63,780 bases of DNA from Alistipes sp. (GTDB lineage Bacteria > Bacteroidota > Bacteroidia > Bacteroidales > Rikenellaceae): assembly GCA_017398555.1 (NCBI GenBank), contig JAFQFV010000016.1, forward strand, positions 1-63,780, given 5' to 3'. The translations under genes were made by a program, and so were the position numbers. The notes beneath the pieces are model-generated. The model saw only the letters and a list, made by a program, of their open reading frames with translations. It was not told the origin of the DNA and searched no databases. This document shows positions 159 through 55,804 of this stretch, one piece after another (the stretch's first letter is position 1; each line of letters opens with the position of its first letter).

Positions 159-297
159 CATTTGTCGTCAAAAGGTAGTAGTAATTGTGCATCGTGCAAA
201 AAAGCAACGGCGGATAGTACTAAAACGTACAGCCGCCGTTGGTTTTTAAGGGATGTGCAATTAATGCTGCCTTTTCACGGCAAATTCACGGCAAATG
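159..297. repeat. Family I nested-hairpin repeat, copy A
   Basis: Outer arms are an imperfect inverted repeat of about 33 bp: the left arm begins TTTGTCGTCAAAAGG and the right arm ends CCTTTTCACGGCAAA. Inside is a hairpin with arms CAACGGC/GCCGTTG and an apex containing GTACTAAAACGTAC. The last 11 bp of the right end (TTCACGGCAAA) are repeated once in tandem. The element ends about 7 bp from the mqnC stop codon, on its 3' side. Copies B and C carry an identical apex with different inner arms. Confidence 0.85.
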
Positions 298-19005: not shown

Positions 19006-19129
19006 ATTTTGTTGTCAGAGCGCGTTAGAGATGGTGCATCGTAAAAAAAGTAGCGACGGATAGTACTAAAACGTACAGCCGTTGCTACTTTTTAAGGGAT
19101 GTGCCATATATAATATCACAACAAAACCT
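19006..19129. repeat. Family I nested-hairpin repeat, copy B
   Basis: The ends are TTTTGTTGTCAG on the left and CACAACAAAACC on the right, with GGTGCATC paired to GATGTGCC nearer the centre. The inner hairpin has arms GTAGCGAC/GTTGCTAC and the same apex (GTACTAAAACGTAC flanked by GGATA and AGCC) as copies A and C. The middle of the outer arms has lost most pairing. It lies about 19 bp from copy C. Confidence 0.85.
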
Positions 19130-19147
19130 CCCCGCGACGCCAAGAAA

Positions 19148-19266
19148 TTGCATTTTAGACGAGTAATTTCAACGCTCGGCAAAAAGCCTCGGCAATGGAT
19201 AGTACTAAAACGTACAGCCATTGCCGAGGCCTTTTGTTAGCGGAAGAAATTACCGCCTAAAATCAA
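19148..19266. repeat. Family I nested-hairpin repeat, copy C
   Basis: The outer arms run from TTTTAGACGAGTAATTTC to the complementary GAAATTACCGCCTAAAA. The inner stem is a perfect 11-bp pair, GCCTCGGCAAT/ATTGCCGAGGC, around the same apex as copies A and B. The inner arms share no sequence with A or B yet remain paired. The right end abuts the DUF4301 stop codon at 19268. Confidence 0.85.
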
Positions 19267-19267
19267 T

Positions 19268-20701
19268 TTATTGGTGTTGTACTCTCAATAGGTCTTGCAC
19301 AACCTTCACCGGCGAGAAGGTCGAGATTGGCACATCAACGAAGATGGTATTCCAATCGGCCATAGCGCCATTCCAGAGACCCGGGAGCTCCTGTGCACGC
19401 AGGTCGCGGCCACCGCTTGACTTTGAAGAGATAAAGCCGGTTGCAGGGTCGGTATAATCTAAAAGATTATATTTTGTACCATCGGCAGCATATACACCGC
19501 ACACCAAATCGACAGGATTGAAGTGGGTTGCATCCTTCATAAGGTGCATATCTTCGGCAGCAATCTGGCTTGACTCGGCAATCTGCAGGGTCTGTGTACC
19601 ATCACCATTTGCCACCCAGAACGGACCACCACCAGGCTCACCCTCGTTGCGCACCATACCGCAGACGCGAATTGGACGAGAGAGGAGCTTCTCGAGCAGT
19701 GCTGCATCGTAATTCTCAGGCAGTTTTACGCACAACTTATTCTGAACAAAGTCAGCAACTGCAGCCAAATCTGCGTTCCCACTCTTAAGCGCTGCCAGCT
19801 GAGCGAAGGTCTGAGCCTGAAGCTCCAAAAGCAGACCTGCAAGGGCCTTTTTATAGAGGACTGTATCGGCACGCAGAGCGTCGGTAGTTACGTTATCGAT
19901 ATTCTTAACGAAGATTATTGATGCGTCGATATCATTCAGATTTTCGAGCAGTGCACCGTGGCCTGCAGGGCGGAAAAGCAGCTCCCCGGAATCTGTTCTA
20001 AATGGCGTATTATCCGGATTTACAGCAATAGTATCGGTAGATGATTTCTGCTGTGAGAATGAGATGTCATACTTCACGCCAAACAGAGCCTCATATTTTG
20101 CAGTTCTCTCGGCAAGCAGAGCACGGAAAGCGCCCTCATGCTCAGGCGATACAGTAAAGTGGAGGCGCACCACGCCATCAGCAGCTCCATAGAGTGCACC
20201 CTCAACAAGGTGCTCTTCCACAGCCTTACGAGCGCCATTCTCGTATGCGTGGAAGGTTACCAGACCCTTTGGAAGTGAACCATAACCCAGACCCTGCTTG
20301 ATAATTGCGCTGACCACAGCCTTTTCGTCAGTAAAGTCGGCAACCACCTGCTTCAGCTCTGGATAGAAGGCGAACTTCTCGATATTCTGGAGCAGAGTAT
20401 CGATACCCTTACCGCGCTTATCCTCATTAACGAACTCAAAGAGCTCCTTGAACATACGGGTAGCAGCACCCGATGCAGGGACAAACTTAGCTACGGTAAC
20501 TGAGGCATCTCTACCCTCATACTTTGCGGCATACTCTGCAGCCTGCTCGGCTGTAAGGACTACAATACCGTCAGCAGGAGAGGCAGCGCTCACCACCTGA
20601 AGTGATGGAAATCCGCGACGGAAGTTCTCAATTTGGCGCTCCACAGCCTCAACTGTAAGGCCATGAGCAGCGATCTGTTTAAGGTCTTGTTCTGTAAACA
20701 T
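19268..20701 (-). CDS. DUF4301 family protein
   Basis: A 477-residue cytoplasmic protein of the DUF4301 family, found mainly in Bacteroidota, with no established function. No signal peptide or membrane segment is seen. Conspicuous conserved strings are KFVPASGAATRMFKELF (near 90-106), GLGYGSLPKGLVTFH, SFSQQKSSTDTIAV and RPAGHGALLENLNDIDASIIFVKNIDN; the last resembles the sugar-nucleotide/phosphate sites of nucleotidyltransferase-like folds, but this is only an impression. It is monocistronic, with its own promoter and family I repeats behind its stop. Confidence 0.8.
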   Translation of the reverse strand: MFTEQDLKQIAAHGLTVEAVERQIENFRRGFPSLQVVSAASPADGIVVLTAEQAAEYAAKYEGRDASVTVAKFVPASGAATRMFKELFEFVNEDKRGKGIDTLLQNIEKFAFYPELKQVVADFTDEKAVVSAIIKQGLGYGSLPKGLVTFHAYENGARKAVEEHLVEGALYGAADGVVRLHFTVSPEHEGAFRALLAERTAKYEALFGVKYDISFSQQKSSTDTIAVNPDNTPFRTDSGELLFRPAGHGALLENLNDIDASIIFVKNIDNVTTDALRADTVLYKKALAGLLLELQAQTFAQLAALKSGNADLAAVADFVQNKLCVKLPENYDAALLEKLLSRPIRVCGMVRNEGEPGGGPFWVANGDGTQTLQIAESSQIAAEDMHLMKDATHFNPVDLVCGVYAADGTKYNLLDYTDPATGFISSKSSGGRDLRAQELPGLWNGAMADWNTIFVDVPISTFSPVKVVQDLLRVQHQ

Positions 20702-36320: not shown

Positions 36321-36446
36321 GTTTTGGTGTCAGAACACGGTAGTAGGTGTGCATCGTGAAAAATCCCCGGATGGGTTGTACTAAGCGTACCACCCATTCG
36401 GGGATTTAAGGGATGTGCAGCTAATGCCGCGTTATCACGCCAAAAC
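36321..36446. repeat. Family I nested-hairpin repeat, copy D
   Basis: The outer arms are about 35 bp: left GTTTTGGTGTCAGAACACGG, right ending CGTTATCACGCCAAAAC. The inner stem is AAATCCCCG/CGGGGATTT, then ATGGG/CCCAT, with apex TTGTACTAAGCGTACCA. It lies between two convergent genes. Its right end overlaps the last codons and stop of galM at 36435. Confidence 0.88.
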
Positions 36447-37490
36447 TCTTAGGCGGAAGACTATCTTCTGACAATACAACTCTCCCTCGTGGAGCAAAAT
36501 TGACGGAAAATCCGGTTGATTGACCGCATCGGGATAGCCCTGGCACTCGATAGCCACGCCTGCGTAGTCGCAGTAGCGGGTATCGGACTTAGTCAGAGGA
36601 CAACCGCCAGAGAGCCAATTACCTGTATAGACCATACAGCCGGGCTGTGAGGAGAGAATCTCCACTTTTCGACCCGACTTAGGGTCTGAGAGTGTGCCGA
36701 CCTCGCCAAGGATATTCTTCTGCCAGCCATCGACAACAAAGAAGTGGTCGTAGCCCTTAAAGTCGCGGATATGGTTGAACTCCGAGTCGATATCATCGCC
36801 TAAACGGCGCGCAGATGTAAAGTCCTGCGGTGTTCCTGCCACATCAATCAGCTTACCTGTGGGTATCTGCACAGCGTTCATCTCAAGAGCCTTTGAGCAG
36901 TTGAGCTGCAGATTGTGGTCGAGGATTGTTCCCGAATTTTCGCCCGAGAGGTTCCAATAGGTGTGGTTTGTCATATTGACAGGCGTTGTGCCGTCAGACT
37001 TGGCGTAGATAGTGATTTCGAGGTTATTCTCGTCATCAAAATCATAGACCACCTGCGTTGTCACCTCGGCAGGATAGCCACAGTCGCCATCCTCCGATAT
37101 AAGGGTGAATATCACACGGTTATACTCCACGCAGCTCTCCCAAAGACGGTTTGAGAAGTTCTTTGTGCCGCCGTGCAGGTGGTTAGGGCCATTATTTACC
37201 TCAAGGTGGTAATCCTTACCCTCAACTCTCATCTTTCCACCGGCAATACGGTTTGCCACGCGACCGACGGTTTTACCTGCGCAAGGGCCATCACCGAAGT
37301 AGCTCATCGGGGCTTTATAACCCAACACCACATCCTCAATCTTACCCTCGCGGTCAGCAAACTTAACGCTCACAATGCCCGCACCGATATTACTCAGCTG
37401 CACCTCAGAGCCAAGGCTGTTTTTGAGTGTGTAGATGACAATAGCCTCGCCCTCGGGTGTTGCGCCCCAGATATGTTGCAGAATCTCCAT
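36435..37490 (-). CDS. galM: Aldose 1-epimerase (galactose mutarotase)
   Basis: Interconverts alpha and beta anomers of galactose and other aldoses. The 351 residues show NRIAGGKM and the conserved NGPNHLHGG, MTNHTYWNLSGE (catalytic histidine) and, near the C-terminus, GVAIECQGYPDAVNQPDFPS with the catalytic glutamate. The start shares one base with the gltX stop. The final residues VLA and the TGA stop are part of family I repeat D. No terminator other than that element is evident behind it. Confidence 0.93.
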   Translation of the reverse strand: MEILQHIWGATPEGEAIVIYTLKNSLGSEVQLSNIGAGIVSVKFADREGKIEDVVLGYKAPMSYFGDGPCAGKTVGRVANRIAGGKMRVEGKDYHLEVNNGPNHLHGGTKNFSNRLWESCVEYNRVIFTLISEDGDCGYPAEVTTQVVYDFDDENNLEITIYAKSDGTTPVNMTNHTYWNLSGENSGTILDHNLQLNCSKALEMNAVQIPTGKLIDVAGTPQDFTSARRLGDDIDSEFNHIRDFKGYDHFFVVDGWQKNILGEVGTLSDPKSGRKVEILSSQPGCMVYTGNWLSGGCPLTKSDTRYCDYAGVAIECQGYPDAVNQPDFPSILLHEGELYCQKIVFRLRVLA

Positions 37491-39022: not shown

Positions 39023-39115
39023 TTCTTTATAAACTTTTGGCTGTTGGCTATTGCGTTAGCCACTCAGCCCGATTTATTATTCTATTTCCTCTAAAATTAC
39101 GTTTGGACGAGGAGG
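39023..39115. other. Intergenic, start of a 513-bp gene-free gap
   Basis: No gene. On the minus strand GGCTAACGCAATAGCC echoes the family II right arm (GGCTAACGCA also occurs near position 92). An open frame from 38986 to 39231 runs across the repeats and has no family features. Confidence 0.4.
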
Positions 39116-39309
39116 CTCGCCGTGGGCAATGTAAATACCTCGCAAATGCAGAGGTGTTGGTGTTTTACAAGGCTTGCTCCCTAAAATTGCTTTTAGGTGA
39201 GGATTTACAACGCTCGCCGTGGGCAATGTAAATACCTCGTAAATGCAGAGGTGTTGGTGTTTTACAAGGCTTGCTCCCTAAAATTGCTTTTAGGTGAGGA
39301 TTTACAACG
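39116..39309. repeat. Two 97-bp tandem repeats
   Basis: Units 39116-39212 and 39213-39309 are almost identical; the first differs from the second by a C/T in ACCTCGCAAATG. Each contains CTCGCCGTGGGCAATGTAAA, GTGTTTTACAAGGCTTGC, a small CTAAAATTGCTTTTAG hairpin and GTGAGGATTTACAACG. A third, partial unit begins at 39390. The unit shares its GTGTTTTACAAGGCTTGC segment with the left arm of the family II element at 39433. Confidence 0.9.
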
Positions 39310-39389
39310 CTGCGATTAAGTCGAACGCAATCAAACTTGTTTGAATTGCTGAGACGAAGCAGCGAAAAGACTCCAACGGAGTATTAACG

Positions 39390-39451
39390 CTCGCCGTGAG
39401 CAATGTAAATACCTCGCAAATGCAGAGGTGTTGGTGTTTTACAAGGCTTGC
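39390..39451. repeat. Third partial copy of the 97-bp repeat
   Basis: Matches the first 62 bp of the tandem unit, with one change (GTGAGC for GTGGGC), then continues into the family II hairpin. It is separated from unit 2 by 80 bp of unrelated sequence containing CTCCAACGGAG. Confidence 0.85.
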
Positions 39452-39523
39452 GAAGCCTGAAAAACCGCAGCATACTTAGCGTATGTGAGGATTTTGAGGG
39501 CGGGTGTAACGCAGTAAAACGCC
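39433..39523. repeat. Family II nested-hairpin repeat, copy a
   Basis: Outer arms GGTGTTTTAC and GTAAAACGCC close a long imperfect hairpin whose apex is GCATACTTAGCGTATGTG, a CATAC/GTATG stem. It lies 12 bp behind the stop of the nucleotidyltransferase gene at 39536. Architecture and apex (TAC...GTA) resemble family I. Confidence 0.75.
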
Positions 39524-42840: not shown

Positions 42841-42988
42841 CATTTGTCGTCAGAGTGGTGTAGTTACCACGCTCGGCGCGATTGGAGGCGATGGGCTGTA
42901 CAAGACGTACTGCCCATTGTGGGCATATTTCGTTAGCGGAAGCTAATGCTACCTTTTCACGGCAAATGCTGCCTTTTCACGACAAAAC
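42841..42988. repeat. Family I nested-hairpin repeat, copy E
   Basis: The left arm begins CATTTGTCGTCAGAG and the right arm contains CCTTTTCACGGCAAATG; the terminal module CCTTTTCACGrCAAA occurs twice. The inner stem is GATGGGC/GCCCATT, with apex TGTACAAGACGTACTG. The last bases overlap the 3' end of the DUF5723 gene (stop at 42957). Confidence 0.85.
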
Positions 42989-49215: not shown

Positions 49216-49223
49216 TATCTTTG
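49216..49223 (+). promoter_or_regulatory. -7 box of the PEGA/DUF1566 gene
   Basis: TATCTTTG ends 6 nt before the ATG at 49230. An upstream in-frame TTG at 49221 is part of this box and is not the start. Confidence 0.7.
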
Positions 49224-49229
49224 TACTCT

Positions 49230-51644
49230 ATGAAGAGATTTGTCGCCATACTGACTCTGCTTTTTGTCGCCTTTGCAGCATCTGCGCAGAGCGAAAACTC
49301 GATAATTATCGACCAAAATTCGTTTAGGCCATTGCAGTCTGACGCGCTGACGGGCGTTAATATCGACCCTATCGGCGTGGACTCTTCACGCCGTCCTTGC
49401 GCCCGTATCAAGATGAAAATCAACAGAATGAGCCGCGAGGATATTGACAAACTCGATGTCAAAATCGTCACAAATAACCAGCTGACCAAGTGCAAAACGG
49501 CAGACTACGAAAACGGACTTATCCTCGAAATGACCGCCAAGCCTGCCACCCGTTTCTACCTCGACCACCCCGAATTTGGACAATCGAACGAAGTTACTCT
49601 CAACCTTGAGCCCAATAAGGAGTACTACATGGAGGCGAGCCTCAATCAGACCTACTCGATTGTCGTAAACTCAAATGTGACTGATGCAGAGGTCTATTTG
49701 GATGGCGAGTACAAGGGTCGCACAGATAACTCTAATAGCCTGACTATCAAGGAGGTATTCATTGGCGAGCACACACTAAAACTGACTTATGGCAATATCA
49801 GCCACGAGCAGAAAATTGAGGTCAATAGTGGCAAAATCTCTTTCCGTCAGAATGTCGATACAGCCGCCTCCGAGCCGCAGTTTGTGGTCTTTACGGTTGA
49901 GCCGCAGAGTGCAGTGGTAATTATCAACAATCAGCACTACACCCTAACTGACGGAGCGATGAACGTGGTGCTCGACAGCGGAACCTACAACTACACCGTA
50001 ACTGCTGCGGGCTACCATCCACAGAGTGGAACATTCTCTGTTGCAGGTAGCAAGGTTTCAAAAAATATCACCCTTTCTGCCGACTCCGCAACCGTCACCC
50101 TCACCGCACCTGACAATGCCGAGATTTGGGTCAATGGAGTGATGAAGGGTACAAGTCATTGGAGCGGCACACTCAACTCGGGCACATATATCTTTGAGGC
50201 ACGCAAGGCGGGGCATAAGAGTTCAACCCTCTCAAAGCACATAACATCTGCAGAGCCACGCCAGAGCTACACCCTGCCCGCACCTACCCCAATTGTCGGC
50301 TCGCTGATTATCTCTGGTACACCGATTAATGCCGATGTTACGCTTGACAACAAGGCGGTGGGTCAGATGCCACTCAAACTGAACGATATCCTTGTGGGCG
50401 AGCATACTATTGTGGTCTCTAAATCGGGATATGAGACTTATACACAGAGTATTGCTATTTCCGAGGGCAAAACTGTAACGGTCAATGCAACGCTTGCAAA
50501 AATTACATCCACCAATCCACAAACTGCATCAGTGCCACCAAGAAGAGCTATTCCCGCAGGAGTTACCTCTGCTTCATATAAAGTCGGCGACTACTACAAT
50601 GACGGCACAAAAGAGGGAGTTGTCTTTGAGGTTTCAGACAATGGTCGAAGTGGTAAGATTGTAAGCATGATACAATCTACCGAAAAAATCCGATGGGCAT
50701 CAGATGATGTCAAGTACAAACAAATAGGAACGAATAGTCAAAACAATGGCGTTGTGAATATGAACATTGTAAAGGCTATCGATGGTTGGGAGAGTAAGTA
50801 TCCAGCTTTTAAGTGGTGTACAGACCTTGGAGAGGGGTGGTATCTGCCAGCAAAAGATGAGCTTGACTTGTTGTCATTTAATACAGCCGTTCACGATGCT
50901 GTAGATAAGACCCTAATAGCCAAAGGCGGCATAAAATTGTATAGTAAAGGTATCAACACTGACAACTATTGGTCATCAACAGAGTGGGATAATAGTTGTG
51001 CATATCGCGCTGACTTTTGGGCATCGTTGGCTATGGTTTGGCGTGATGATAAGCAATTTGGTCATACCGTTCGTGCAGTGGCTGTTTTTGGAACTGAAAT
51101 CACCTCTGCTCCATACAAGGTTGGTGACTACTATAACGACGGCACGAAGGAGGGTGTTGTCTTTGAGGTTTCAGCCGACGGCAAACACGGTAAAATTGTG
51201 AGTATGACGCAGTCTGCAACTGCTATGCAATGGACATCAAATGAAAAGGAACAAAAACGCCTAATCGGTGCTGATAGTGAAACGGACGGAGCAGCCAATA
51301 TGGCAAAGGTTAAGGCAAGACCTGATTGGCAGAGTAAGTATCCTGCCTTTAAGTGGTGCACTGATTTGGGTGATGGTTGGTATCTACCTGCTATTGAGGA
51401 ATTTAAGAAGTTTATCCTTGACGATACTATCCATGATGTAGTAAACCGTACCCTTGCAGCAAAGGGTGGTAAGAAACTCTATAATAAGGGTGAGCGTGGT
51501 GGTTGGTATTGGTCATCAACGGAGCGTGATTATCGAGCACGTAGTGGTGAGTTTTGCGCGTGGCTTGTCAGTATGCTCAGTGGCGACACCAACTTCAGCA
51601 GTAAGCACTACGACTACTATGTGCGCGCCGTTGCAAAATTTTAA
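49230..51644 (+). CDS. Secreted PEGA-repeat protein with two tandem DUF1566-type domains
   Basis: The 804 residues start with a signal peptide (MKRFVAILTLLFVAFAASAQ). About 130-435 holds at least three PEGA-type repeats, such as DAEVYLDGEYKGRTDN, NAEIWVNGVMKGTS and NADVTLDNKAVGQMP. Two tandem C-type-lectin-like DUF1566 domains follow (about 447-624 and 625-804), both starting YKVGDYYNDGTKEGVVFEVS, with FKWCTDLG(E/D)GWYLPA and YWSSTE, and ending VRAVA.F. The two copies differ most in the 25-30 residues between YWSSTE and VRAVA. It is secreted or surface-exposed; the ligand is unknown. Confidence 0.85.
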   Translation: MKRFVAILTLLFVAFAASAQSENSIIIDQNSFRPLQSDALTGVNIDPIGVDSSRRPCARIKMKINRMSREDIDKLDVKIVTNNQLTKCKTADYENGLILEMTAKPATRFYLDHPEFGQSNEVTLNLEPNKEYYMEASLNQTYSIVVNSNVTDAEVYLDGEYKGRTDNSNSLTIKEVFIGEHTLKLTYGNISHEQKIEVNSGKISFRQNVDTAASEPQFVVFTVEPQSAVVIINNQHYTLTDGAMNVVLDSGTYNYTVTAAGYHPQSGTFSVAGSKVSKNITLSADSATVTLTAPDNAEIWVNGVMKGTSHWSGTLNSGTYIFEARKAGHKSSTLSKHITSAEPRQSYTLPAPTPIVGSLIISGTPINADVTLDNKAVGQMPLKLNDILVGEHTIVVSKSGYETYTQSIAISEGKTVTVNATLAKITSTNPQTASVPPRRAIPAGVTSASYKVGDYYNDGTKEGVVFEVSDNGRSGKIVSMIQSTEKIRWASDDVKYKQIGTNSQNNGVVNMNIVKAIDGWESKYPAFKWCTDLGEGWYLPAKDELDLLSFNTAVHDAVDKTLIAKGGIKLYSKGINTDNYWSSTEWDNSCAYRADFWASLAMVWRDDKQFGHTVRAVAVFGTEITSAPYKVGDYYNDGTKEGVVFEVSADGKHGKIVSMTQSATAMQWTSNEKEQKRLIGADSETDGAANMAKVKARPDWQSKYPAFKWCTDLGDGWYLPAIEEFKKFILDDTIHDVVNRTLAAKGGKKLYNKGERGGWYWSSTERDYRARSGEFCAWLVSMLSGDTNFSSKHYDYYVRAVAKF

Positions 51645-52718: not shown

Positions 52719-52849
52719 CATTTTGTTGTCAAAAGGTGGTAGTTGCAATGCTCGGCGCGATTGGAGCCGATGGGTTGTACTTACTCGTACTGCCCATTGG
52801 TGACATATCGCGTTAGCGGCAGTAAATGCCGCCTTTTCACAACAAAATT
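52719..52849. repeat. Family I nested-hairpin repeat, copy F
   Basis: The left arm starts CATTTTGTTGTCAAAAGG and the right arm ends GCCTTTTCACAACAAAA. Inside are ATGCTCGGCGCGAT paired loosely with ATCGCGTTAGCGGCA, and the inner stem GATGGG/CCCATT with apex TTGTACTTACTCGTACTG. It ends directly at the start codon (52850) of the next gene, so it forms that gene's 5' region. Confidence 0.88.
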
Positions 52850-55804
52850 ATGGATACGCAGCAAAACGAAAAGGGTAAAGACTACTCGCAGTTGATGAGT
52901 CGAAGGATTCGTCGAATACTGTTGGTGTGCAATAGTTATGACAGCTACACATTAGAGGAGGATGGCAGGCTTGAGGTGCAGATTACGCAGGAGTACTCCG
53001 AACTCAACCTGAGTAACCCGCCATCTATTACACGTGTAGAGTCCACTATCGAGGCGTTAGAGTTGATTGAGCGTTGCGAGCAGTTTGATCTTGTGATTAC
53101 GATGTACAACGTCGGCCAGATGGATGTATATACATTCTCGCACAAGATGAAGCAGCTCAGCCCGAATACCCCTGTTGTATTGCTGACAAACTTCTCGAAG
53201 GAGATATATCGCCAGATTGAGCAGGCAGACACCTCCGATTTGGACTATATCTTCTGCTGGAACAACTCTACCGACCTGATTATCGCCATAATCAAGCTCA
53301 TAGAGGATAGTATGAATGCCGACCACGACATTCTGGAGTTCGGCGTGCAGACAATTCTGCTTGTAGAGGACTCTATACGTTACTATTCGACCTATCTGCC
53401 GGCGATATACAAGTTGGTACTTCAGCAGAACAGAGCCTCGATACGCGATGCGCTCAACGAGCAGCAGCAGATTGCCCGAAAGCGTGCCCGTCCGAAGATT
53501 TTGATGGCGACAAACTACGACGATGCCGTGCGGATGTATCAGCGATACAAGAACAATATGCTCGGCGTAATATCCGACGTAGGCTTTGTAATTCATAAAA
53601 ACGATGACCCTGCAACCGAGAAGCTCGATGCCGGTATCGACTTGTGCAACCTCATTCGCAAGGACAACCCTACGATGCCATTCTTGATGCAGTCCTCGCA
53701 GGAGAGCATGAGAGAGGTTGCCGAGCAGTTGGGTGTAGGCTTTGTAGTCAAGCACTCCAAGACCCTTATTCACGAGATTGGCGAGTATATCGGCAGAGAG
53801 TTTGCCTTCGGTGACTTTGTGCTCACCGACCCACAAAGTGGTGAGCAGATTGCCCGCGCAGAGGATTTGTTGGAGCTCGAACGACTATTAAATACCATAT
53901 CCGACTCCGTACTCTACGACGTTGTCACAACGACATATCTATCCAAATGGTTACTATCGCGAGGTATCTTCTCGTTGGGAAATTCCTTCCGCGAGCTTAC
54001 CCTCAAGGAGTTTAATGACGATATTGCTGCTGTACGACAGTTCCTCACAGACTCGCTGCGTGACTACCGCATCAAGCAGGGATTGGGTGTAGTCGCCCGA
54101 TTCTCTCCTGAGAGTTACAATGACGCCATTTGGTTCTCGCGTCTTGGTAATGGTTCTATAGGCGGTAAGGCTCGCGGTCTTGCCTTTATGAATCACATTC
54201 TGCAACAATACAGCCTATACAATGAGTGGGAGAATGTTCGCGTAATGGTCCCAAGAACACTTGTGATTACAACCGAATATTTTGACAGATTTATTATCGA
54301 AAATGGTCTGCAATACGTTGTCAATGCCGACTTGAGTGATGCTGAAATTCTCTCCGAGTTTGTTGCCTCATCGCTACCGCAAGAGTTGATGGAGTCGCTG
54401 AGAGTCTTTATTCGTCACGTCAAAAAACCACTTGCCGTACGTTCGTCATCTAAGTTGGAAGACTCTTACTATCAGCCATTTGCGGGAATATACTCAACCT
54501 ATATGATTCCTCATACAGAGAATGAGGATCAGGAGTTGCGTCTGCTCTCAAAGGCGATTAAGAGTGTCTATGCCTCGGTATATTTTGCCTCATCGCGTGC
54601 CTATATTACCGCCACAGCAAATGTAATTTCGGAGGAGAAGATGGCCATCGTATTGCAGGAGATTTGCGGTTCAGAGGATCAGGGATACTTCTTCCCGACG
54701 CTCTCAGGTGTAGCCCGTTCACTTAACTTCTACCCTATCGGCTATGAGCGTGCCGAGGAGGGCATTGCAAAGGTTGCCTTCGGATTGGGAAAGGCGGTTG
54801 TCGATGGCGAGCAGGTACTGCGTTTCAGCCCTAAATATCCGCAACACGTGCTGCAAACATCCACTCCGGAGCTCACTATGAGGGAGACACAGCAGACAAT
54901 GTACGCTCTCAACCTGCAACCTGACAAGTTTAAGACATCTATCGACGATGCCGTAAACCTTGAGAAGATAAAGATTGCCGACTCTACATCTTTCCGTAAT
55001 ATTAAGCATGTCGCTTCAACGTGGGATATGCAGAGTATGCGCCTTACGGACTCCCCTCTTGCCGAGGGTATCAAGGTGATAACTTTTGCGCGAATACTCA
55101 AGTACAACACCTTCCCTCTTGCAGAGATACTCTGTCGTCTGCTTGAGATTGGCCAGAACGAGATGAAGACCTGTGTAGAGATTGAGTTTGCGGCAAATCT
55201 TGACCGAGGAAAGCGTCTTGCTATATTCAATGTGCTGCAAATTCGCCCTATAGCCTCTGCGGCTGCCGAAACAAATATGGATTGGGATACGGTAGATAGC
55301 AACAAGTCGCTAATCTACTCCGAGAGTGCATTGGGAACAGGCTTTGTAGAGGGGATACGCGATGTGATATATCTGCGTAGTGAGAACTTTGACCCATCAA
55401 AGACACAAATTATAGCAGACGAGGTAACACAACTCAACAACAAGATGCGCGAAGAGGGTTTTGGATACCTTCTGTCGGGATTTGGGCGTTGGGGCTCGAG
55501 CAATCCGTGGCTCGGTGTACCTATAAAGTGGAGCGATATATCGGAGGCAAAGGTGATTGTAGAGTGTGGCTTGGATAACTTCCGCATTGAGCCGAGTCAG
55601 GGCACACACTTCTTCCAGAATATGACCTCCTTTGGTGTGGGATATATTACGGTCAATCCGTATGCAGGCGAGGGTCGCCTTGATTTTGAGAGGCTGGATG
55701 CAATGCCGGCACTATATGAGAGTGAGTTTATTCGACACGTACGATTTGAAGAGCCACTCGAAATTTGCATCGATGGCGTGAAAAACAAAGCGATAGTCCG
55801 ATAA
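52850..55804 (+). CDS. Tandem receiver - PEP-synthase-type ATP-grasp protein
   Basis: A 984-residue cytoplasmic protein. Residues 20-150 are a receiver-like domain without phosphoacceptor (the usual Asp position reads VITMYNVGQ). Residues 165-320 form a second receiver with E173/D174, D243, S282/S283 and K301 all in place. From about 420 the ATP-grasp domain of PEP synthase/pyruvate phosphate dikinase begins (LGNGSIGGKARGLAFM, LAVRSSSKLEDSYYQPFAG). The phospho-histidine and PEP domains are missing, so it cannot perform the normal reaction alone. The start at 52850 is preferred because an upstream extension runs into repeat F. Confidence 0.8.
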   Translation: MDTQQNEKGKDYSQLMSRRIRRILLVCNSYDSYTLEEDGRLEVQITQEYSELNLSNPPSITRVESTIEALELIERCEQFDLVITMYNVGQMDVYTFSHKMKQLSPNTPVVLLTNFSKEIYRQIEQADTSDLDYIFCWNNSTDLIIAIIKLIEDSMNADHDILEFGVQTILLVEDSIRYYSTYLPAIYKLVLQQNRASIRDALNEQQQIARKRARPKILMATNYDDAVRMYQRYKNNMLGVISDVGFVIHKNDDPATEKLDAGIDLCNLIRKDNPTMPFLMQSSQESMREVAEQLGVGFVVKHSKTLIHEIGEYIGREFAFGDFVLTDPQSGEQIARAEDLLELERLLNTISDSVLYDVVTTTYLSKWLLSRGIFSLGNSFRELTLKEFNDDIAAVRQFLTDSLRDYRIKQGLGVVARFSPESYNDAIWFSRLGNGSIGGKARGLAFMNHILQQYSLYNEWENVRVMVPRTLVITTEYFDRFIIENGLQYVVNADLSDAEILSEFVASSLPQELMESLRVFIRHVKKPLAVRSSSKLEDSYYQPFAGIYSTYMIPHTENEDQELRLLSKAIKSVYASVYFASSRAYITATANVISEEKMAIVLQEICGSEDQGYFFPTLSGVARSLNFYPIGYERAEEGIAKVAFGLGKAVVDGEQVLRFSPKYPQHVLQTSTPELTMRETQQTMYALNLQPDKFKTSIDDAVNLEKIKIADSTSFRNIKHVASTWDMQSMRLTDSPLAEGIKVITFARILKYNTFPLAEILCRLLEIGQNEMKTCVEIEFAANLDRGKRLAIFNVLQIRPIASAAAETNMDWDTVDSNKSLIYSESALGTGFVEGIRDVIYLRSENFDPSKTQIIADEVTQLNNKMREEGFGYLLSGFGRWGSSNPWLGVPIKWSDISEAKVIVECGLDNFRIEPSQGTHFFQNMTSFGVGYITVNPYAGEGRLDFERLDAMPALYESEFIRHVRFEEPLEICIDGVKNKAIVR

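Follow-up and report, generated by a model that had tools for sequence, protein, structure and literature searches.

A dispersed hairpin family with a maintained structure at gene ends in Alistipes and other Rikenellaceae

INTRODUCTION

What kind of element keeps its fold while its sequence changes, and what is it doing at the ends of genes? The question is raised by the window analyzed here, a 63,780-nucleotide stretch of DNA that makes up contig C10 of an Alistipes sp. genome (2.03 Mb in 38 contigs). A first-pass annotation, made from the letters alone, had marked six copies of an inverted repeat in it (A to F) and proposed that stems that change yet remain paired point to a maintained structure. 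All six copies were found where it had placed them, both on inspection of the sequence and as covariance model (CM) matches (Table 1), and the repeat is real. It is a dispersed single hairpin of about 114 to 133 nt found in Alistipes/Rikenellaceae MAGs.

THE COPIES IN THE WINDOW

Table 1. Hairpin copies in the window, parts of copies B and C, and two genes whose stops adjoin or lie inside a copy
Feature	Position	Strand	Description	Score
Copy A	159..286	+	Type 1 hairpin	CM 126.9 bits; RNA z -11.3
Copy B	19006..19127	+	Type 1, right arm shortened	CM 104.3 bits; RNA z -7.3
Copy B inner stem, left arm	19050..19059	+	GTAGCGACGG, read from sequence	
Copy B apex	19063..19076	+	GTACTAAAACGTAC, exact match	
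Copy B inner stem, right arm	19079..19088	+	CCGTTGCTAC, read from sequence	
Copy C	19151..19264	+	Type 2 hairpin	CM 53.8 bits; RNA z -10.6
Copy C inner stem, left arm	19186..19198	+	GCCTCGGCAATGG, read from sequence	
Copy C apex	19202..19215	+	GTACTAAAACGTAC, exact match	
Copy C inner stem, right arm	19218..19230	+	CCATTGCCGAGGC, read from sequence	
DUF4301 gene	19268..20701	-	Stop adjoins copy C	Pfam PF14134, 4.4e-197
Copy D	36321..36446	+		CM 90.1 bits; RNA z -10.8
Aldose 1-epimerase family gene	36435..37490	-	Stop inside copy D	Pfam PF01263, 7.6e-80
Copy E	42841..42968	+	Type 2, diverged	CM 26.9 bits; RNA z -4.4
Copy F	52720..52848	+	Type 2	CM 57 bits; RNA z -11.2

Copies B and C each fold as one single hairpin. 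The inner arm pairs originally quoted for B, C, and A do pair, and GTACTAAAACGTAC is common to all three. The middle stem of copy C, CGCTCGGC/GTTAGCGG, differs from that of B, and its outer arms are ATTTTAG/CTAAAAT. Copy E carries an additional right-arm remnant reaching 42986 (repeat family D2).

What do the copies lie next to? The right ends of A and C are 18 nt and 4 nt, respectively, from the stops of minus-strand genes (304-1395 for A, the DUF4301 gene for C). Copy D, as judged by comparison of orthologues, provides both the stop codon and the final residues of the aldose 1-epimerase family gene. With the element in place of the last codons, that protein ends RVLA, and those of element-free relatives end differently. 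Copy F is one of the exceptions in placement; its right end adjoins the ATG (52850) of a plus-strand gene (ORF 52826-55804). The listed start of this ORF lies within the right arm of copy F, in frame with the later ATG, and its protein has PPDK_N and response regulator domain matches in Pfam. Five of seven window proteins encoded near copies match ordinary Pfam families (CofH/MqnC-like, DUF4301, aldose epimerase, DUF5723, and PPDK_N), and the other two have no Pfam match. Elsewhere, the window holds a 97-nt direct repeat in three copies (39115-39485), the third just 69% alike, and a 114-nt direct repeat, 78% alike (50565-50678 and 51102-51215), within ORF 49221-51644.

FAMILY SIZE AND HOSTS

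The exact core GTACTAAAACGTAC occurs 28 times in the genome, where a reversed-pattern control gave 0. A BLAST search with B and C returned at least 48 matches (40 of 96 candidates scored), and the covariance model returned at least 139, at 137 or more distinct places (150 of 862 candidates scored). The model was built from 24 seeds taken from 30, and because these were picked by the exact apex and by eye, it favors type 1. In other genomes, where part of the candidates was likewise scored but under filters stricter than in the own-genome scan, it matched 23 of 61 relatives, every one in the same genus, and, across the family, 36 of 150 genomes, belonging to 3 of the 22 genera. A scan for the exact core gave 87 loci, all in MAGs titled Alistipes sp. 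or Rikenellaceae; the hosts, where named, were goat, sheep, deer, cow, yak, and buffalo.

STRUCTURE AND ITS MAINTENANCE

The element comprises five helices in one long hairpin with mismatched internal loops retained: an outer helix, a two-part middle helix, a short A/T helix, an inner helix that varies among copies, and an apical stem of four pairs. Is this structure kept as its sequence changes? Among the 24 nonredundant seed copies, pairing is well beyond chance: 97.7% of cells are paired versus 77.1% in shuffled alignments and at most 49.8% in slid ones. Cells changed on both sides number 216, versus 64.7 shuffled and 29 to 41 slid. A tree-aware test, the null of which redistributes substitutions over a tree relating the copies (a tree that is only approximate because copies exchange sequence), was applied to two alignments, each restricted to the best strand and to rows of at least 112 nt with identical rows merged. 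The cross-species alignment (150 of 176 matches, out of 66 of the 87 exact-core loci; 94 of the 150 aligned rows kept) had 19 of 47 pairs significant, above the null, and no significant pairs outside the structure. The own-genome alignment (70 of 128 aligned rows kept) had 9 of 47, and 3 of its 12 significant pairs were outside. The structure search of the genome and its relatives thus produced neither mostly unpaired inner arms nor covariation at the level of the control, and the reading of changed-but-paired stems as a maintained structure is supported.

The first-pass annotation needs some amending. Inner arms do change yet pair, as it said, but the outer and middle arms covary as well, and covariation extends to all helices. 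Its invariant apex holds in one sub-type only: other copies have apical stems ATAC/GTAT and GTAG/CTAC with varied loops. Among the 70 own-genome copies, which were not selected by apex, pair changes occur in every helix; even in the apical stem, one pair is G-C in 53 and A-T in 17, and another is C-G in 64 and G-C in 6. Might these be chance palindromes or an assembly artifact? The origin of all 87 exact-core loci in MAGs would suit that idea, but the matches in 36 of 150 separate genomes, the covariation, and the controls refute it, leaving it next to no probability.

Pairing by itself is no proof of selection, because one arm is at times copied onto the other, as at L063 and in genome G029 at site 3 of the L207 stretch (described below). 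The pairing is more than this, however. Of 164 copies, 149 keep one or more mismatches in the first internal loop, where 8 are fully paired and 7 have gaps; for the second loop, the corresponding numbers are 157, 2, and 5. In addition, paired positions hold far more G.T than A.C: 119 versus 7 in the 24 seeds (40 versus 7 when G.T-majority pairs are left out), 352 versus 45 in one wider set (with 204 other mismatches and 2,627 Watson-Crick pairs), and 411 versus 67 in another (166 and 3,685). Arm correction alone is ruled out by the retained mismatches and this asymmetry, which together argue for selection on the plus strand; folding of one strand seems to be what is selected. The plus strand has the more stable fold in 65 of 70 copies, and the opposite strand folds better in 5, as it also does for copy C. 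Deamination on an exposed strand would push in the opposite direction, if the plus strand is the leading-strand template.

PLACEMENT AT GENE ENDS

A home-made finder was used to call genes in the window and in 20 stretches (440 kb). Of the 70 hits with a called right-hand gene, 66 have that gene pointing at the element, while the direction of the left-hand gene is mixed, 35 versus 24, with 24 of 59 pointing away. When duplicates are collapsed, 50 distinct gene ends remain, 47 of them directed at the element and 3 belonging to genes that run the opposite way; the right end of the element is -11 to +21 nt from the stop in 44 of the 50 and further off in 3. The right end thus lies against the stop codon of a gene on the other strand, relative to which the plus strand is antisense. 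Does the element target a fixed TTA? This is doubtful: next to the right end, TTA occurs in 46, CTA in 16, and TCA in 7 of 93 copies (21, 8, and 8 of 69 in a second set). Since TAA is found there too (20 of 93 and 7 of 69) and, in part because of the AATT ends themselves, also at the left mirror position (26 of 93 copies and 5 of 69), stop-triplet counts are a weak guide, and the gene-end claim rests on the 50 gene ends.

An A-run and a T-run flank the inner stem in both senses. When read in the direction of the abutting gene, 43 of 70 and 81 of 94 copies have a T-run of at least 4 within 12 nt after this stem. Three copies, B, C, and D, were within range of a simple terminator scan, which flagged none of them. 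The simple promoter and terminator scan was uninformative (33 and 17 found versus 25.7 and 15.6 in shuffled sequence).

ORIENTATION AND REPLICATION

Copies on a contig tend to face the same way. At 127 of the 137 places in the genome, the element faces the way that most copies on its contig do (maximum in 20,000 random draws, 107), and on contigs with at least 5 copies the count is 83 of 85 (random maximum, 66). Among the matches listed for relatives, contigs with at least 2 copies gave 61 of 68 in one set (random maximum, 58) and 51 of 56 in a second (random maximum, 50). Among those same matches, two contigs of G003 are uniform (8 of 8 and 7 of 7), and contig C17 of G017 is mixed, two and two. 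The sign of the GC skew agrees with orientation in 17 of 21 sources on 11 contigs, although some values are near zero; it disagrees in L203, L209, L210, and L216. Among relatives it agrees in all 4 stretches with both matches and a computed skew; a further relative stretch, L257, had no element match. Genes number 190 on the abutted strand and 133 on the other, so that gene direction alone is insufficient to account for the orientation bias. As judged by GC skew and gene density, the copies appear mostly oriented with the leading strand.

Does this polarity say how the copies spread? It would be uninformative if they inserted both ways and those whose stably folding strand lay on the lagging-strand template were later deleted. 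Hairpins are unstable on lagging templates, and the better-folding strand does lie on the inferred leading template. Such a filter leaves unexplained why the copies adjoin stop codons on one strand only, and we consider it very improbable.

RNA OR SINGLE-STRANDED DNA?

If one strand is selected to fold, in which molecule does it do so? The transcribed plus strand could be an RNA, be it a terminator, a small RNA, or an element in the processing or stability of the left-hand transcript, its spread being incidental. RNA commonly contains G.T wobbles and internal loops of the G.A type, the covariation resembles that of structured RNAs, and the A- and T-runs around the inner stem are there in both senses. 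Yet a plus-strand RNA would be antisense to the abutting gene, and a role in RNA at gene ends gives no reason for replication polarity. No Rfam family matched at the gathering threshold in the window, and at a lax threshold seven loci gave one weak match (E 0.47), which places the hairpins outside the known Rfam RNAs. The left flanks look species specific by eye, and together with the left-hand genes that point away, these lead us to lean toward single-stranded DNA as the selected form. An RNA element we regard as unlikely.

TURNOVER BETWEEN RELATED SPECIES

Are the copies old residents of their sites? In the L207 stretch, four gene ends were compared, and at each of them the sub-type beside the stop codon differs among carriers. 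(i) At site 1, G000, G003, and G006 have the element, and G028, G029, and G030 are without it. (ii) At site 2, the same three genomes carry it, and G005, G028, G029, and G030 do not. (iii) At site 3, it is in G000, G003, G028, and G029 and not in G006. (iv) At site 4, it is in G000, G006, and G030 (the last by eye only) and not in G003, G028, or G029. By eye, the element-free genomes at sites 2 to 4 have an ordinary-looking terminator beside the stop. Likewise, the place of the element in L121 is taken in G000 (L131) by a terminator-like hairpin. At the D locus, for which 41 genomes were searched, 38 had a match, and the loci of 30 were compared, the model matched in 3 of the 30 (G000, G006, and G028), the element of G028 being of another type. 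The elements seem, from such comparisons, to stand in for the ordinary transcription terminators of genes.

The copies also bear marks of rearrangement. Left-half relics with linker lie to the left of several, in tandem and slippage-like; some copies are chimeric (e.g., L018 and L024); and an inverted copy of the gene end lies to the left of copy D. Among the loci read, no insertion had intact flanks on both sides; the left side differs. A second repeat (CCTCTGCYCTCACGAGCAGCGTCGGTCGG plus neighbors) breaks into the left arm, or takes its place, in several hairpins (L226, the D locus of G006; L201:221; L214:10452; L198:7368; and L207:15592). Species-specific simple repeats (GACTACGAGACC.., GGCGTTCTCA.., and CCCTATCTT..) occupy the region left of elements at L038, L041, L042, L050, L092, and other RGIG1643 loci and at L053, L069, and L098 (RGIG9436).

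Could the family have spread with no dedicated enzyme, by template switching or recombination between hairpins where terminators of codirectional genes stall the fork, with hairpin-templated correction matching the arms? The tandem relics, the chimeras, the inverted gene end, the orientation polarity, and the arms copied onto each other (the two examples above and the 8 fully paired first loops) would all fit. So would the inverted extension of sequence beyond the arms, seen for 4 7-mers (control mean 0.9, maximum 3) and 3 8-mers (control mean 0.2, maximum 2), though for words of 5 and 6 it is within the control. Correction, on the other hand, should have removed conserved mismatches and equalized G.T and A.C, neither of which is seen, and we think this route improbable.

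THE SEARCH FOR A MOBILIZER

What might move such hairpins? The Y1 (IS200-like/RAYT) transposase PF01797 is in none of the 37 genomes of the genus, which sets the family apart from REP/RAYT systems; it is present in 19 of 24 other genomes searched. Integron integrase (TIGR02249) gave no match over the cutoff in the 37; sub-threshold matches occur in all 37 and also in 14 of 14 control genomes. Reverse transcriptase (RT; PF00078) is absent from G000, G011, G017, G021, G022, G028, and G035, all with at least 36 element matches, and found in G003, G006, G025, and G029, an inconsistency across carriers that speaks against group II or retron membership. Target site duplications in 163 copies were not above the swapped-flank control: for lengths of 4 to 9, the counts were 39, 14, 4, 4, 3, and 2, with control means of 32.4, 11.9, 4.4, 2.1, 1.4, and 0.8 and maxima of 45, 17, 10, 5, 5, and 2. 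Nor was an autonomous parent with its halves flanking a gene found; in loci of at least 5 kb, the sole candidate pair (L254) straddles another copy. Phage carriage was rejected, the exact core having 0 matches in viral contigs.

COMPARISON WITH KNOWN SYSTEMS

Integron attC sites are kept by structure over sequence, fold from one strand, and are placed right after a gene, and the hairpins are like them in all three. They are not attC sites: RYYYAAC/GTTRRRY boxes are within 22 nt of the ends, on either strand, in 0 of 164 copies, no integrase exceeds the cutoff, and of the seven neighboring window proteins, five are of ordinary families and two match none. Group IIC introns insert at terminators and attC sites in an orientation-specific manner. 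The hairpins share the gene-end hairpin sites and the orientation specificity but are much shorter, and their own genome has no RT match.

REPs and BIMEs, which go with RAYT (Y1), are 20 to 40 bp long and tagged by an unpaired GTAG or CGTC tetranucleotide, and the GTAG end can provide a stop codon (PMC3733652, in its available text). Like the hairpins, they are dispersed palindromes, mostly downstream of genes and thought to be nonautonomous (PMC3733652, same text). Unlike REPs, the hairpins measure some 114 to 133 nt and have five helices with covarying arms and no Y1 gene in 37 genus genomes. As for the tags, the first 15 nt contain CGTC in 76 of 164 copies and GTAG in 2; CGTC there overlaps a paired, covarying arm. 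ERIC/IRU, Correia/NEMIS, and RUP elements resemble the hairpins in being stable intergenic stem-loops of about 100 to 200 bp whose mobilizer is often unproven; these MITEs mostly have terminal repeats and target duplications (PMC2229807, in its available text). The outer arms of the hairpins pair but vary, with no target duplication above the control, and they are not DDE MITEs. Replication polarity and terminator exchange are not described for those MITEs in the available text of PMC2229807. In short, the family works like REP/ERIC, as a dispersed gene-end palindrome, yet falls outside REP/RAYT, DDE MITEs, and attC.

HMP2_4205, a 132-bp palindromic candidate RNA of human gut Bacteroidetes, is similar by description in length, palindromic form, and host phylum, and such candidates are predicted terminators (PMC8040213, in its available text). 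On description alone, these Bacteroidetes candidates could be related to the hairpins; dispersal, polarity, and turnover are not mentioned for them in the available text of PMC8040213. Full-text literature searches found no description of the family, and its novelty rests on those searches.

WHAT THE HAIRPINS MAY BE

We give an even chance to the reading that these are a nonautonomous, structure-maintained family of mobile hairpins that takes over the terminators of leading-strand genes, with mobility as such, the single-stranded DNA form, and terminator function being what we infer from sequence comparison. The folded plus strand, as leading-strand template or nascent lagging strand, would be recognized at the replication fork during spread. 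Copies would settle at former intrinsic terminator sites, where the A-run, inner stem, and T-run would then act as a terminator, and they may be tolerated at gene ends because they serve in this way. Slippage, exchange between copies, and arm-on-arm copying would then reshape them. A bolder proposal, which we hold to be doubtful, is a new mobile class: a folded single strand that would move at the fork, recognized by its shape rather than its sequence, independently of known single-strand transposases, integron integrase, and RT, and that would replace leading-strand gene terminators.

Dispersed palindromes are common; it is whole-length covariation, replication polarity, and terminator swapping that would set these apart. 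Such an element would link the direction of the fork with mobility and with where transcription ends. Natural replicate experiments are offered by orthologous gene ends with and without it, and the missing mobilizer is a concrete target. If replacement of leading-strand terminators is true, the 3' ends of genes would have been rewritten repeatedly across a genus.
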